64,000 nucleotides of DNA from Methanothermococcus thermolithotrophicus DSM 2095 (GTDB taxonomy: Archaea; AGJL01; Methanococci; Methanococcales; Methanococcaceae). The DNA lies in assembly GCF_946463545.1 (NCBI RefSeq), contig NZ_OX296583.1, positions 186,001 to 250,000 of the forward strand, given 5' to 3'. The notes below the pieces were generated by a model. It ran no database searches. It was not told the origin of the DNA and was given only the letters and a program-made list of their open reading frames with translations. Below are positions 15,750 to 56,284 of this stretch, one piece after another (position 1 is the stretch's first letter; the number at the start of each line of letters is the position of its first letter). Both the position numbers and the translations under genes were made by a program.

Positions 15750-15912
15750 TCTCGACAAAAATCTTCGAATTTGTGAGTCTCAACGATCCACCGCAACACA
15801 GTTGCGAGGAAGTTGAATAATCTATGATTATTCAACTAAATCAAAGATTTTCGTGAGTTAGTAGGTCCTTCGGATTTACTTCGACAGCAAATCCTTCGGA
15901 ATTTGTCTCGAT
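15750..15912 (+). repeat. Palindromic repeat cluster R2
   Basis: The gap between the DHH gene and fen holds serial hairpins: CGACAAAAATC-ttc-GAATTTGTGAGTC (about 15752-15779), CGCAAC-aca-GTTGCG (15792-15806), AGTTGAATAATC-tat-GATTATTCAACT (15811-15837), GTAGGTCC-ttc-GGATTTAC (15861-15879) and GCAAATCC-ttc-GGAATTTGT (15888-15906). Linkers GAGTC, TTCGACA and TCTCGA are shared with clusters R4-R6. Confidence 0.85.
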
Positions 15913-40643: not shown

Positions 40644-41969
40644 ATGTTGGTTTCTTTTAACTTTGAAGTGCACCAACCACATAGATTGAAGAAATCTGTA
40701 GATATTGGTTGTAAAAATTTATGGGAACGGTATATTGATACGAATTTAAACAAGGATATTTTTAATAAAGTAGCCAATAAGTGTTATATACCCGCAAATA
40801 GGACTATTCTCGATTTAATTGATGAATATGACATTAAAGTATCCTACAGCATAACTGGAGTATTTTTAGAACAAGCCATGGAATTTAACGATGAGGTTTT
40901 AGATTTATTTAAGGATCTGGTAAAAACTGGAAATGTAGAGCTCATTGGAGAAACATACCACCACTCCCTTTCAAGCTTTTTTGAAGACCATGGTGAGTTT
41001 AGGGAAGATATAAAACTGCACCAAAAAATGATAAAAGAATTATTTGGTTATAAAACAGAGGTTTTCAGAAATACTGAATTAATATACAACAACAAAATAG
41101 CAGAAACTATCAAAGATTTAGGATTTAAAGGCATATTTACAGAAGGTACTGAAAGAATACTTGGATGGAAATCTCCAAATTACGTTTATAATGCACTCTG
41201 TGGACTAAAAGTCCTATTAAGAAATTATAAACTAAGCGATGATATAGGATTTAGGTTTTCTTGTCAAGATTGGGAAGAATATCCCTTAACTGCAGATAAA
41301 TATGCAACATGGCTTTCAAAAACTCCTGGAGACTGCATAAACCTTTATATGGATTATGAAACATTTGGGGAACACCAATGGAAAGATACGGGAATATTTG
41401 AATTTTTAAGACATCTTCCCCAAGAGCTCCAAAAATACGATCATATAGAATATGCCACCCCTTCTGAGATCTTGGAAAGATGCATCCCGAGGGGAAATAT
41501 TGATGTACATGAGTTTTCAACCATTTCTTGGGCAGATACTGAAAGAGATGTAAGTGCATGGATAGGCAATAGAATGCAGCAACTTTCATTTAGTAAATTA
41601 AAAGAGATAAGAGAACATCTTGGAAGATATATGTCAATGAAAGATAAAGAAAACCCTGAAAAATCGAAGCAAATTTCAAAAAATTCACCGATCGAGACAA
41701 ATTCCGAAAGGAATTTGTCGATTCACGAACCCAAAGGTTTCGTCGAGACTTTAGAATACAAAATATATAAAAACCTTCAAACAAGTGATAATTTATATTA
41801 CATGTGCACAAAAGGTTTCAATGACATGAATGTACATTCTTACTTCAGCCATTTTGAGAGTCCATTTGACGCTTATGCAGCATACTTAGATGTAATGTAT
41901 GACTTTAAAAACCACCTAATGATCGAACCTATTTTAAGAAAATATTTAAAATACAAAAACCATAAATAA
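40644..41969 (+). CDS. GH57 alpha-amylase-type enzyme carrying an in-frame palindromic repeat
   Basis: A 441-residue GH57 protein. HQPHR near residue 10 (region I), GETYHHS near 105 (region II), the nucleophile E145 in FRNTELIY and the acid D237 in MDYETFGEHQW are present. It degrades or rearranges glycogen in the cytoplasm. Residues about 340-369 (ISKNSPIETNSERNLSIHEP and following) are encoded by a palindromic repeat otherwise found between genes (41661-41750), apparently inserted without breaking the frame, past the catalytic core. ATG follows GGAGGATATT. Confidence 0.88.
   Translation: MLVSFNFEVHQPHRLKKSVDIGCKNLWERYIDTNLNKDIFNKVANKCYIPANRTILDLIDEYDIKVSYSITGVFLEQAMEFNDEVLDLFKDLVKTGNVELIGETYHHSLSSFFEDHGEFREDIKLHQKMIKELFGYKTEVFRNTELIYNNKIAETIKDLGFKGIFTEGTERILGWKSPNYVYNALCGLKVLLRNYKLSDDIGFRFSCQDWEEYPLTADKYATWLSKTPGDCINLYMDYETFGEHQWKDTGIFEFLRHLPQELQKYDHIEYATPSEILERCIPRGNIDVHEFSTISWADTERDVSAWIGNRMQQLSFSKLKEIREHLGRYMSMKDKENPEKSKQISKNSPIETNSERNLSIHEPKGFVETLEYKIYKNLQTSDNLYYMCTKGFNDMNVHSYFSHFESPFDAYAAYLDVMYDFKNHLMIEPILRKYLKYKNHK
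41661..41750 (+). repeat. Palindromic repeat R4 inside the GH57 coding sequence
   Basis: Contains GACAAATTCC-gaaa-GGAATTTGTC (41696-41719, perfect) and ACGAACCC-aaa-GGTTTCGT (41725-41743, one mismatch), preceded by ATCGAAGCAAAT and followed by CGAGA. The same word order (TCGAAGCAAAT, ACTCACGAA, GGTTTCGTCGAGA) occurs in intergenic cluster R5 at 51812-51866. The frame stays open through it. Confidence 0.85.
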
Positions 41970-51778: not shown

Positions 51779-52019
51779 GAGCCCGGAGGGATTACCACCC
51801 AACCTTTAGAAATCGAAGCAAATCCGAAGGATTTACTGACTCACGAAACCTTCGGTTTCGTCGAGAGGTTGCATCCCAACCCTTTTTAAAAGTGTTGGAT
51901 CCCAAAATCTGAAAGCTTAATCGTCCAACCGAAGTTTCGTCGAACTCACGAAACTTTTTGCATCAAAGCTTTTTTAAAGCTTTGGGTTGGATCCAAAAGT
52001 TACTATAATATAAAAAAAG
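51779..52019. repeat. Palindromic repeat cluster R5, bordered by a copy of the tRNA-Arg 3' end
   Basis: Starts with GAGCCCGGAGGGATT (51779-51793), an exact copy of tRNA-Arg 3'-end sequence at 52021-52035; the A-run before it is copied too. Inside are hairpins GCAAATCC-gaa-GGATTTAC (51818-51836), ACGAAACC-ttc-GGTTTCGT (51843-51861), CCAACCCTTTTT/AAAAGTGTTGG (51876-51898), AAGTTTCGT/ACGAAACTT (51932-51956) and CAAAGCTTT/AAAGCTTTG (51964-51984). About 40 bp around 51868-51906 recur at 55066-55106. Confidence 0.85.
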
Positions 52020-52284: not shown

Positions 52285-52656
52285 GTGAGAGAACTTCTAT
52301 TAATAGGTATTGGAGGATTTTTTGGAGCAATGCTTAGATATTTAATAAGTGGTATATTGCCTACAAAATTTGGGTTGCCAACTGGAACGATGATGGTAAA
52401 CCTTATAGGGAGTTTTTTAGTAGGCATTATTATGTATTCCTCAATGTTTTTTCAAATTTCTCCAGAATCGAGGTTGTTTATTATCACAGGATTCTGTGGG
52501 GCCTTAACAACGTTTTCAACGTTTAGTTATGAAACCTTTTCATTGATCGAACATGGGTATATAATAAAATCTGGGTTAAATATAGTTTTGAACCTATTTG
52601 GATGCCTCTTTATGATTTACTTAGGGAGAGCATTCTCTTTTATTCTCTTTGGGTGA
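52285..52656 (+). CDS. crcB: CrcB/Fluc fluoride channel
   Basis: A 123-residue protein with four membrane segments: IGIGGFFGAMLRYLIS near the start (conserved GGxxGAxxRY), GLPTGTMMVNLIGSFLVG near residue 35, and GFCGALTTFSTFSYE near 75, the Fluc Phe-box and Na+-site region. It exports fluoride as a dimer. Start is GTG at 52285 with GGTGG upstream. The stop lies inside a family A repeat unit. No fluoride riboswitch pattern was seen upstream. A DUF190 gene, its frequent partner, lies downstream. Confidence 0.93.
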   Translation: MRELLLIGIGGFFGAMLRYLISGILPTKFGLPTGTMMVNLIGSFLVGIIMYSSMFFQISPESRLFIITGFCGALTTFSTFSYETFSLIEHGYIIKSGLNIVLNLFGCLFMIYLGRAFSFILFG

Positions 52657-52880
52657 TTGAACAAAAACCGTTAGGTTTTTGTAACTCACCTTCACTACTC
52701 GACGAAACCGAAGGTTTCGTGAGTCTTAACGAAAACCTTTCAGGTTTTCGTAAGTCAGCGAATTTTTTGAAATTCGCTTCGACTCGACAAAAATTCAAAG
52801 AATTTCTGTGAGTCAGCGAATCCAAAGGATTCGCTTCGACAGCAAATTTCAAAGAAATTTGCTTCGACGTTCAGGTGATT
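52650..52880 (+). repeat. Palindromic repeat array R6: seven hairpins between crcB and the DUF190 gene
   Basis: A family A unit (GGTGATTGAAC, hairpin 52661-52682, AACTCACCTTCACTAC) is interrupted at 52699-52868 by six more hairpins: 52702-52720, 52729-52751, 52758-52777, 52787-52809, 52816-52834 and 52842-52862. Stems are 8-10 bp with 3-4 nt loops (gaa, ttc, aaa). Linkers alternate GAGTCA-type and TTCGAC-type. After 52868 the family A unit resumes (GTTCAGGTGAT) and supplies the ribosome site of the next gene. Confidence 0.9.
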
Positions 52881-52882
52881 TT

Positions 52883-53203
52883 ATGGAGATTATACCTGCT
52901 AAATTATTAAGAATATACTTAAAAGAGGAAGATAAATACGAGAAAGAACCGTTGCTTGAGTTAATAGTAAAAATACTTAAAAAAAATAATGTATCTGGAG
53001 TAACTGTCCTAAGGGGGCTATATGGTCATGGAATGAGAGGAACTTCTAGAATTGATATAATTAGGCTTTCTATGAATTTACCAATAGTAATTGAGTGTGT
53101 AGAGTACGAAGATAAATTGATGAAGATTCTACCAAAAATAACCGACATTATAGGCGAAAATGGGCTTATACACATACTTGATGTAGAAGTAGTAAAAAAA
53201 TAA
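52883..53203 (+). CDS. DUF190 protein, partner of CrcB
   Basis: A 106-residue protein of the DUF190 (COG1993) family: AKLLRIYLKEEDKYEKEPLLELIV, GVTVLRGLYGHGMRG and IIRLSMNLPIVIECVEYEDKL. It has a PII-like ferredoxin fold and is often fused to or beside CrcB fluoride channels, suggesting a regulatory or ligand-binding role. The ATG at 52883 uses an AGGTGAT ribosome site contributed by the repeat array. The frame is open further upstream only through the repeats. Confidence 0.88.
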   Translation: MEIIPAKLLRIYLKEEDKYEKEPLLELIVKILKKNNVSGVTVLRGLYGHGMRGTSRIDIIRLSMNLPIVIECVEYEDKLMKILPKITDIIGENGLIHILDVEVVKK

Positions 53204-53242
53204 TATATTTTATAACGGTCGTAATTTACTAGTTTAATTTCC

Positions 53243-53345
53243 GGTGATTGAATGAAAACCTAAACGGTTTTCATAGCTCACCTTACACTTCGTTCAGGTG
53301 ATTAAACGAAACCTACGGTTTCGTAGCTCACCTTCACTACGTTCA
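53243..53345 (+). repeat. Two tandem family A palindromic units, R7
   Basis: Unit 1 (53243-53296) and unit 2 (53297-53345) each read GGTGATTRAA, a hairpin (GAAAACC/GGTTTTC; CGAAACC-tac-GGTTTCG), TAGCTCACC and then CTTCGTTCA or CTACGTTCA. They end directly in GGTGATATT-ATG, so a third GGTGAT acts as the ribosome site for tfrA. Confidence 0.88.
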
Positions 53346-53354
53346 GGTGATATT

Positions 53355-54998: not shown

Positions 54999-55281
54999 GA
55001 TATTCTTTTAGCACTTCTAACAATCCTACACATCCTGTAATCGTACATGGGCAACCTTTAGAAAAGGTTGCATCCCAACCCTTTTTAAAAAGTGTTGGAT
55101 CCCAAAGTTTGCATCCAAGCTTTTTTAAAGCTTGGTTAGAAAAGGTTGCATCGAAACTTAGGGAATATCTCTCTTTAGATATTCTTTTAGCACTTCTAAC
55201 AATCCTACACATCCTGTAATCGTACATGGGCAACCTTTAGAAAAGGTTGCATCGAAAATTATAAAATATCTCACTTTGTTC
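54999..55281 (-). repeat. Cluster R8: duplicated 3' ends of the DUF1786 gene with palindromes between
   Basis: The 44-bp end of the next gene (55282-55325) recurs at 55179-55222 and 54999-55042 with few changes. The two outer copies stay identical for about 75 bp, through GCAACCTTT-aga-AAAGGTTGC. Between them lie CCAACCCTTTTT/AAAAAGTGTTGG and CCAAGCTTT/AAAGCTTGG hairpins shared with R5. The outermost copy still encodes TGCVGLLEVLKEYLKK followed by TGA. Confidence 0.88.
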
Positions 55282-56284
55282 GATATTTTTTTAGCACTTC
55301 TAACAATCCTACACATCCTGTAATCATCACATCGCCACCGGGATATGCATATTCTCCGTATTTTTTAAATAATGCTCTGTTTGGTCCTGCAATTAAAACT
55401 GTTTCAGGTTCTATTTTATCCAATACTGTTGCACCATGACCCTTGTCATTGAATATTTCCTCATTTGTCAGAGCTCCGTTGGATAACTTTTCAACAATCT
55501 CTTTTAATTTTTCAGGTGTTAAAAGTCTAGTATGGTGTTCAAAAAGACCTTTTATTTTTCCATCTTTTATTGAAACCCCTAACGTGTGGCCATTTCCAAT
55601 ATCGAGACCTACAAACTCTTTTATATCATTTTCATTTGCATAACTTAAAATACCGCAAATTGAAGCTACCTTACTGTCCATTACAATACCATTATATTTA
55701 TTTTCCCTTAAAGTTTCCAATACTGTATCGAATCTTGAAAAATAACCTACTTTATTGTTTTTACCATCAAAATAAAAATCATAAGGATTATCTGTTTCCT
55801 TCAGCCTTTCTTCAAAGTATTTAAACCTTGTAATTCTGTCACTTTGTCCCTTAACAAAACCATGATCCTGGCATGCCACACATACAAAATCTGGTTTAAA
55901 TTCTTCCCCAAACGATGAGAATATATTTTTTAGCATTTCAAAGTCCAAATCTCCAAAAATAACGTTTGGATTATCTATTTTTTCCTTAATGACTATTCCC
56001 CTGGCAGTTACTTCTTCTAAATCGTCCCTAATAGTTCTTGCCGCACTTTTGGAAATCTCAACTTTAAATCCTTTTTTCATGTGCTGCATAACGGCATGAG
56101 CTACAGGGCCTCCCCCCATTATTTTTCCATCTATTCTAAGATCTTCGTTTATTCCTTTTATTTTATTTGCAATTATTGTTGTTGGAGATGGAAGAATAAG
56201 TTTTATAGAATTTTCAATATTTTTGTTGTTGTAGTACAAAATATCCTGAGTCCCCTTCCCAATATCTATGCAAAGAACATTCAT
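55271..56284 (-). CDS. DUF1786 (COG4012) protein with actin-like ATPase fold
   Basis: A 337-residue protein with two ASKHA-type phosphate loops, VLCIDIGKGTQDIL at the start and FVGLDIGNGHTLGVSI near residue 225, and IAGPNRALFKKYG near 305. Methanogen homologues are listed as DUF1786, sometimes annotated loosely as PFL-activase-related; function unknown. The C-terminus (VLKKYRTK) differs from the KEYLKK endings of the two duplicate copies beyond the stop, so the original end may have been displaced by the repeat. ATG follows AAGGTGGTTCT. Confidence 0.8.
   Translation of the reverse strand: MNVLCIDIGKGTQDILYYNNKNIENSIKLILPSPTTIIANKIKGINEDLRIDGKIMGGGPVAHAVMQHMKKGFKVEISKSAARTIRDDLEEVTARGIVIKEKIDNPNVIFGDLDFEMLKNIFSSFGEEFKPDFVCVACQDHGFVKGQSDRITRFKYFEERLKETDNPYDFYFDGKNNKVGYFSRFDTVLETLRENKYNGIVMDSKVASICGILSYANENDIKEFVGLDIGNGHTLGVSIKDGKIKGLFEHHTRLLTPEKLKEIVEKLSNGALTNEEIFNDKGHGATVLDKIEPETVLIAGPNRALFKKYGEYAYPGGDVMITGCVGLLEVLKKYRTK

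Follow-up and report, generated by a model that had tools for sequence, protein, structure and literature searches.

Small palindromic repeats are present in most prokaryotic genomes, and their origin and spread are mostly open. The MJRE palindromic repeats of Methanocaldococcus jannaschii, studied by Suyama, Lathe and Bork in 2005, are said to fall into three old and diverged groups, and that study is not known to deal with nesting, a bracket-like order, exactly defined ends or flipped loops. IS200/IS605 (Y1 HUH) elements and their non-autonomous derivatives carry a hairpin near each end, leave no target-site duplication and have strict targets. Mitochondrial double-hairpin elements are cited to Paquin (2000). 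In fungi and sponges such elements are pairs of adjacent hairpins, optional between relatives and with a few in-frame insertions, and the sponge double hairpins are ascribed to tandem insertion (accessible parts of PMC2800124 and PMC7218506). Rickettsia palindromic elements of about 150 bp are inserted in frame into unrelated genes (accessible part of PMC10969869), and REP dimers or BIMEs are pairs of palindromes tagged by GTAG or CGTC, some of the dimers lying inside longer palindromes and some encoding 20–30 residues in genes (accessible part of PMC3733652). The known kinds are the palindromic repeats of M. jannaschii, the Rickettsia elements, REP dimers within palindromes, and the double hairpins of mitochondria; bracket nesting, targeting of the own centre and loop flipping were not found for related known palindromes in the accessible parts of the sources, and a literature search which had most subscription papers outside its range gave no report of nested double-hairpin elements in Methanococcales.

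The window analysed here, a 64-kb stretch (G000:C1:186001-250000) of the 1.71 Mb genome of a methane-producing archaeon in a single contig (G000, the own genome below), carries between crcB and a DUF190 gene a block that is probably a nest of small mobile double-hairpin DNA elements, inserted without duplication, recognised by structure and targeting palindromes. We call the element P-Q after its two hairpin classes. With the MJRE repeats it shares the archaeal order, the many palindromic copies and the presence of some of these in frame within genes. Unlike the REP palindromes as described in the accessible text, P-Q has no GTAG or CGTC foot, its stems are variable while its feet are constant, and it inserts into its own centre. 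In-frame insertion into unrelated genes is common to P-Q and the Rickettsia elements, but P-Q copies in genes measure 51–111 bp and are hierarchically nested. The mitochondrial elements resemble P-Q in the paired hairpins, the optional presence and the in-frame insertions, but they are organellar, and the word 'nested' is absent from the accessible parts of both papers; the likeness is one of form, and no common descent is claimed. Subterminal hairpins and missing duplications are as in IS200/IS605 elements, whereas P-Q targets are loose, without fixed 4–5 nt on one side, and the own genome is negative for Y1 (PF01797). As for traits of classical MITEs, neither target-site duplications nor long terminal inverted repeats were seen, the two ends sharing TCGA alone.

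The block between crcB and DUF190

The features of the junction are the following:

52285..52656, + strand, crcB, fluoride channel family (ORF; PF02537, E 4.7e-30)
52652..52697, + strand, 5' part of unit A with GGTGAT, a hairpin at 52661-52682, CTCACC and a linker that ends where the block is inserted, as judged from unbroken A units
52698..52867, + strand, composite array CTCG...TCGA of 170 nt, P1[P2 Q3][P4 Q5]Q6 (98% copy with the same limits elsewhere; hairpin classes)
52702..52720, + strand, hairpin P1, opener of the outer element
52725..52782, + strand, inner double-hairpin element 1, CTTA-P2-AAGTC-Q3-TCGA (model match G000:C1:238726-238783)
52783..52839, + strand, inner double-hairpin element 2, CTCG-P4-GAGTC-Q5-TCGA (model match G000:C1:238784-238840)
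52841..52863, + strand, hairpin Q6, closer of the outer element
52868..52882, + strand, 3' part of unit A with CGTTCA, a Shine-Dalgarno-like GGTGAT (52874-52879) and then the DUF190 start
52883..53203, + strand, DUF190 gene downstream of the block, start at 52883 (PF02641, E 1.1e-25)
53243..53351, + strand, two tandem unbroken A units before the next, fumarate-reductase-like gene, taken as the empty site in the original prediction

A units have the layout GGTGATTGAAC-hairpin-GTAACTCACC-TTCACTACGTTCA-GGTGAT, and at the crcB-DUF190 junction, where the crcB stop TGA (52654-52656) lies within the first GGTGAT, 170 bp split the unit after CTTCACTA. The original prediction, made from the letters of this DNA, had described one word as split here and whole in the tandem units. 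This is borne out, with CTTCACTAC at 52690-52698, GTTCAGGTGAT at 52869-52879 and the unbroken CTTCACTACGTTCAGGTGAT in the tandem A units, and exact restoration of the host gives the expected insert of 170 nt at 52698-52867 (or 52699-52868, one C being ambiguous). Six hairpins had been expected as well and are present (52702-52720, 52729-52751, 52757-52778, 52787-52809, 52815-52835 and 52841-52863), but they are not six equals with repeated linkers, as had been thought, and belong to two classes in the order P P Q P Q Q. The idea that hairpins are added in pairs was right, each pair combining a P with a Q.

The unit measures about 51–60 bp and has two hairpins, 5'-CTCG-(hairpin P)-GAGTC-(hairpin Q)-TCGA-3', in which P is TCG-AC..GT-GAGTC and Q is AGC..GCT-TCGAC; in a variant pair a P with GAATC is combined with a hairpin R (GAC..GTC-TCGAT). 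Over 24 aligned units the feet are TCG/TTA/TCT/TCA, GAGTC/AAGTC/GAATC and TCGAC/TCGAT. The inner junctions within the block are exact (GAGT^CTTA..TCGA^CTCG..TCGA^CAGC), and the block is three copies of the double-hairpin element, one outer and two inner ones, P[PQ][PQ]Q. Folded as single-stranded DNA the region gives z = -11.6, with 0 of 200 shuffles as good.

Copies, empty sites and insertions within genes

A whole-genome search with the block returned a 98% copy, corresponding exactly to window positions 52699-52867, at G000:C1:1108751-1108919, 870 kb off, and a further copy with 82% identity at 1157764-1157935. Block and 98% copy are identical at 165 of 169 positions, and the four mismatches amount to a single substitution plus a loop flipped from AAA to TTT. 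The 98% copy is set in a different palindrome, with joined flanks CAACCT^TTTCTAAAGGTTG. The three-copy composite exists at two unrelated places with the same limits, which gives independent confirmation of the extent of the insert.

For the census a covariance model was built from 24 of 29 P-Q units, two malformed ones and three near-repeats being left out. It has 74 matches in the own genome (E <= 0.01), some of them overlapping or on opposite strands of the same palindromes, and many of the P-Q copies there are decayed. At E <= 0.001 matches were obtained in 8 of 41 genomes, namely the own one, G003, G004, G006, G009, G015, G026 and G028, with weak matches in G006 and G026 and a single strong P-Q match, within a methyltransferase-like gene, in G028. 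Seven of the ten G009 matches are one sequence, and the four of these inspected sit in copies of one transposase-like gene, so that the G009 number reflects its carrier. Viral contigs had no match to a strict Q pattern, and four matched a loose P pattern. The window holds three further copies:

51812..51864, - strand, single P-Q element in a family C palindrome (model match G000:C1:237812-237864; joined flanks)
15832..15885, + strand, decayed P-Q copy beside the second element family F (model match G000:C1:201832-201885)
41664..41747, - strand, 84-nt P-R-Q copy in frame in a gene that looks like a glycoside hydrolase (model match G000:C1:227691-227746; the ORF spans the copy)

DUF190 matches were found in 26 of 36 genomes including the own one; of the 25 relatives, six are without crcB within 1.5 kb and 19 have it adjacent. 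An array kept in the crcB-DUF190 gap of all close relatives had been named in the original prediction as the sign of an RNA leader. In our comparison, made at the level of the relatives' genomes and not of strains of one species, the array occurs in 0 of the 19 relatives with adjacent genes, which upholds the inserted element, and none of the covariance-model matches of the relatives lies at this site. In G002, G005, G010 and G012 the gap has 4 nt and reads GGTGATTTAATG or GGTGATTTTATG; this junction apparently is the state before A and the block arrived. The 272-nt gap of G006 (L172), in which the first DUF190 codons are repeated after crcB and other hairpins are present, looks like a different insertion at the same junction with partial duplication.

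The clearest pair of a filled and an empty site is found in a gene which we take, from the look of its protein, to encode leucyl-tRNA synthetase. G015 has a 57-nt insert CTTGAC..TTCGA where G009, 89.5% and 91.4% identical on the two sides, is uninterrupted, and the insert is also missing from 12 other aligned genomes including the own one (query matches in 34 of 36 genomes; 14 of 24 fetched loci aligned). This pair fixes a 57-bp insertion without target-site duplication. Rad50 has an insert of about 25 residues in the own genome alone among 20 aligned; it is absent in 18 of 19 relatives, and the 19th, G010, has other residues in part of the insert gap. The window's gene resembling a glycoside hydrolase has, against its relatives, additional residues in a linker; since this linker varies in all relatives, it is the softer case.

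All nine gene-borne copies with CTCG..TCGA ends have lengths that are multiples of three (57, 57, 57, 57, 105, 105, 111, 84 and, in Rad50, 51), two pairs of them share a common site (L012/L010 and L014/L156), and ORFs span them in frame and without stops, as is the case for Rickettsia palindromic elements. The original prediction, that a small non-coding element had entered an older repeat or expanded inside it, is supported in both halves: the outer copy was placed in A, and two more in the centre of that copy. The element is not confined to non-coding DNA, because copies also lie in frame within genes. Such in-frame copies show protein segments born from hairpin DNA; they are found in Rad50, an intein, leucyl-tRNA synthetase and a DNA polymerase. 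A 111-nt PPQQ array stands in frame near the start of a family-B-DNA-polymerase-like gene (L122, G000:C1:427097-427199). A helicase gene with an intein and an identical PPQQ insert (L156, G000:C1:1456026-1458476) is 100% identical over 2451 nt to L014 of G004, from another genus, which may point to either a recent transfer or an assembly issue.

The 98% pair could stem from gene conversion between two older elements instead of transposition, and in a wider form of this explanation gene conversion spreads arrays among older, independently inserted elements, with true transposition long ceased. The many decayed copies would fit, as would the enzyme not found by the Y1 search of the own genome, but the initial insertions are left unexplained, as is the exact empty site in the comparison of genes of 89% identity, and we regard this explanation as unlikely.

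Target sites and the search for an enzyme

Once the arrays (ends CTCG and TCGA) are taken out, a hairpin spans the joined flanks at 15 of 28 arrays compared with 70 of 1039 random positions at the same loci, and by eye several of the remaining arrays lie in the A linker or between the two hairpins of element F (AGTTGAATAATC..GATTATTCAACT plus CCGCAAC..GTTGCGG). At 437252, for example, a P-Q stands in F and F in A, before a start codon. Lifting out F likewise leaves a perfect host hairpin (GGTTT^TTGT). The longest abutting flank repeat has 0 nt at 10, 1 nt at 13, 2 nt at 3 and 3 nt at 1 of 27 sites, hence 0–1 nt at 23 of the 27. These sites are 24 of the 28 joined-flank arrays and three gene sites of relatives; the four arrays left out include repeats in the same host, and for the window gene site the flank is that beyond its last Q. 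The 5' flanks end variously in CCT, ACT, CTA, AAAA, GAAG, AATA and others. Joined flanks and empty sites taken together show insertion without target-site duplication and a preference for resident palindromes including the element's own centre, and this preference may partly reflect survival in intergenic DNA.

Two arrays lie in or beside an arm of an inverted R hairpin (L126, 780877-780978, and L144, 1432042-1432170), the joined flanks of the former giving GACAAATTTCCTTGGAATTTGTC. The fetched loci have nine distinct places where a start codon follows the GGTGAT at the end of an A unit; these places include window 53243-53351, L116, L117, L119, L138, L145, L147 and L154. A seems to be an element family that settles on ribosome-binding sites and leaves them usable. 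In L157 (1159-1420, G000:C1 around 993.6 kb) and L114 (979-1515, 71.2-71.7 kb) CRISPR repeats (GTCTGAAAGACACATCCATTAAAACAAGGATGGAAAC) or their relics harbour yet another double-hairpin element, which interrupts them at CATCCATT^AAAACAAGG; the 3' junction of this element has five genome matches with at most three mismatches, including 90765, and P-Q is nested in two of them.

In the model we favour, the hairpins would extrude as single-stranded or cruciform DNA, and template switching would keep their stems perfect. The element, presumably non-autonomous and recognised via its hairpins, would move alone or together with the copies nested in it, through a duplication-free reaction that recognises hairpins and has an outcome like that of IS200/IS605, and the exposed hairpins of resident repeats would be its favoured targets. 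It is probably selfish DNA, any effect on the translation of DUF190 being a by-product. More tentatively, P-Q, F, the CRISPR-repeat element and perhaps A might share one structure-directed kind of movement in which hairpins are the mobile body as well as the favoured target. If true, nests would grow by a bracket grammar and be movable as wholes, and such targeting, by structure and not by sequence, would be new among the mobile DNA of prokaryotes.

A REP-type Y1 transposase, suggested in the original prediction, was not found in the own genome: PF01797 has no match there, while 5 of 14 control genomes are positive. In the whole group PF01797 occurs in 5 of 36 genomes, of which the own is not one; these five and the eight genomes with P-Q model matches have G003, G004 and G015 in common, which is a lead at best. 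The hairpins upstream of the Y1 genes L236 (G029) and L239 (G004, a broken gene) are of another type than P-Q. Filing P-Q under IS200/IS605 is not justified, because no Y1 was found, the readable Y1 hairpins of relatives differ and the targets are loose. If the block were an array of the REP/BIME type, mobilised by a REP-associated Y1 tyrosine transposase (RAYT), it would also consist of short paired palindromes, intergenic and sometimes intragenic, and REP dimers inside palindromes have already been published (PMC3733652, accessible part). Against such an array stand the missing PF01797 match and units with variable stems on constant feet that carry no GTAG or CGTC, so that we consider it improbable.

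Bracket order and paired changes in stems

Insertion of the element into its own centre (GAGT^CAGC) gives arrays that can be read as balanced brackets. The class of each hairpin was taken from its letters alone, the hairpins were then read in order along each array, and the test covered the 17 arrays with at least four tokens out of 22 with at least three. Balanced words (PPQQ, PPRQ, PPQPQQ, PPQPRQ and PPQPPRQQ) were obtained for 13 of the 17, where shuffling, a null that ignores the shared ancestry of the arrays, expects 3.9 for untyped and 3.1 for typed brackets; without three near-copies 11 of 14 are balanced. Among the 17 arrays, all those with as many openers as closers are balanced, and a GAATC-type P is directly followed by R in 9 of 9 cases. 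In array 1496014 a spurious trailing token was removed by hand, and array 1285974, with P P and Q separated by a decayed hairpin, was not counted.

The unbalanced long arrays are 119518, 423994, 861551 and 1432042. The first has a chimeric hairpin ATGAAAATC..ATTTTTGT, as would be expected from recombination of two P units in an array like 1157717. The five three-token arrays are unable to balance; four are broken by or stand beside another element, and the fifth, 78094 (PQQ), clearly lacks balance. Several of the unbalanced arrays, though not all, can be put down to recombination or to another element interrupting them, with 423994, 861551, 1432042 and 78094 not fully accounted for.

Growth in place, by slippage or unequal recombination multiplying hairpins in an old A unit, would agree with the recombination between units seen in 119518. 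Tandem growth gives PQPQ, however, which none of the 22 arrays with at least three tokens shows throughout, whereas PPQQ and P[PQ][PQ]Q require central insertion and single elements have exact empty sites in unrelated genes; this makes growth in place very unlikely as the source of the block. A bracket word is a history of which element came first and which went into which, so that the sequence itself records the succession of insertions, and such histories make age, choice of target and movement en bloc testable by counting.

Stem pairing is kept in 97.9% of 373 cells over 21 distinct units, with 68 two-sided against 5 one-sided changes and few G-U steps. Of 110 three-base loops 101 are GAA/TTC or AAA/TTT, and of 25 distinct pairs of loops borne on one and the same stem, 10 are related as exact reverse complements. 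The copies at the same site of the methyltransferase-like gene in G028 and G003 differ in both loops alone, TTC against GAA. GNA loops form very stable DNA minihairpins, and this stability could also favour these four loops without flipping. Homogenised arms and inverted spacers are marks of template switching at inverted repeats (accessible parts of PMC8604942 and PMC8794818). Paired stem changes, few G-U steps and flipped loops therefore point to hairpin copying at the DNA level and not to an RNA leader; they provide a clean natural example of the pattern predicted for template switching at DNA hairpins, and a caution that such covariation does not prove an RNA to be functional.

A structured RNA leader or riboswitch, associated with crcB, controlling DUF190 and maintained by compensatory change, would suit the very stable fold, the position of the block before a start codon next to the Shine-Dalgarno-like GGTGAT and the nine places where A units join GGTGAT to a start codon, but is highly improbable given the unconserved position (0 of 19 relatives), the same array at an unrelated place, the copies within genes, the loops in both orientations, the lack of any Rfam family at gathering score over the block and a predicted pairing of GGTGAT that is alike with and without it. 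As the origin of the block such a leader is refuted by the empty sites and the placement. A fluoride riboswitch or other known RNA was rejected at the Rfam gathering level, a sub-threshold mir-148 match over two hairpins being a resemblance of fold, and masking of the Shine-Dalgarno sequence was rejected on the unchanged GGTGAT pairing. Tandem repeats also occur further downstream at window 55055-55325; one of them has a 104-nt unit and overlaps the DUF1786 gene at its end.
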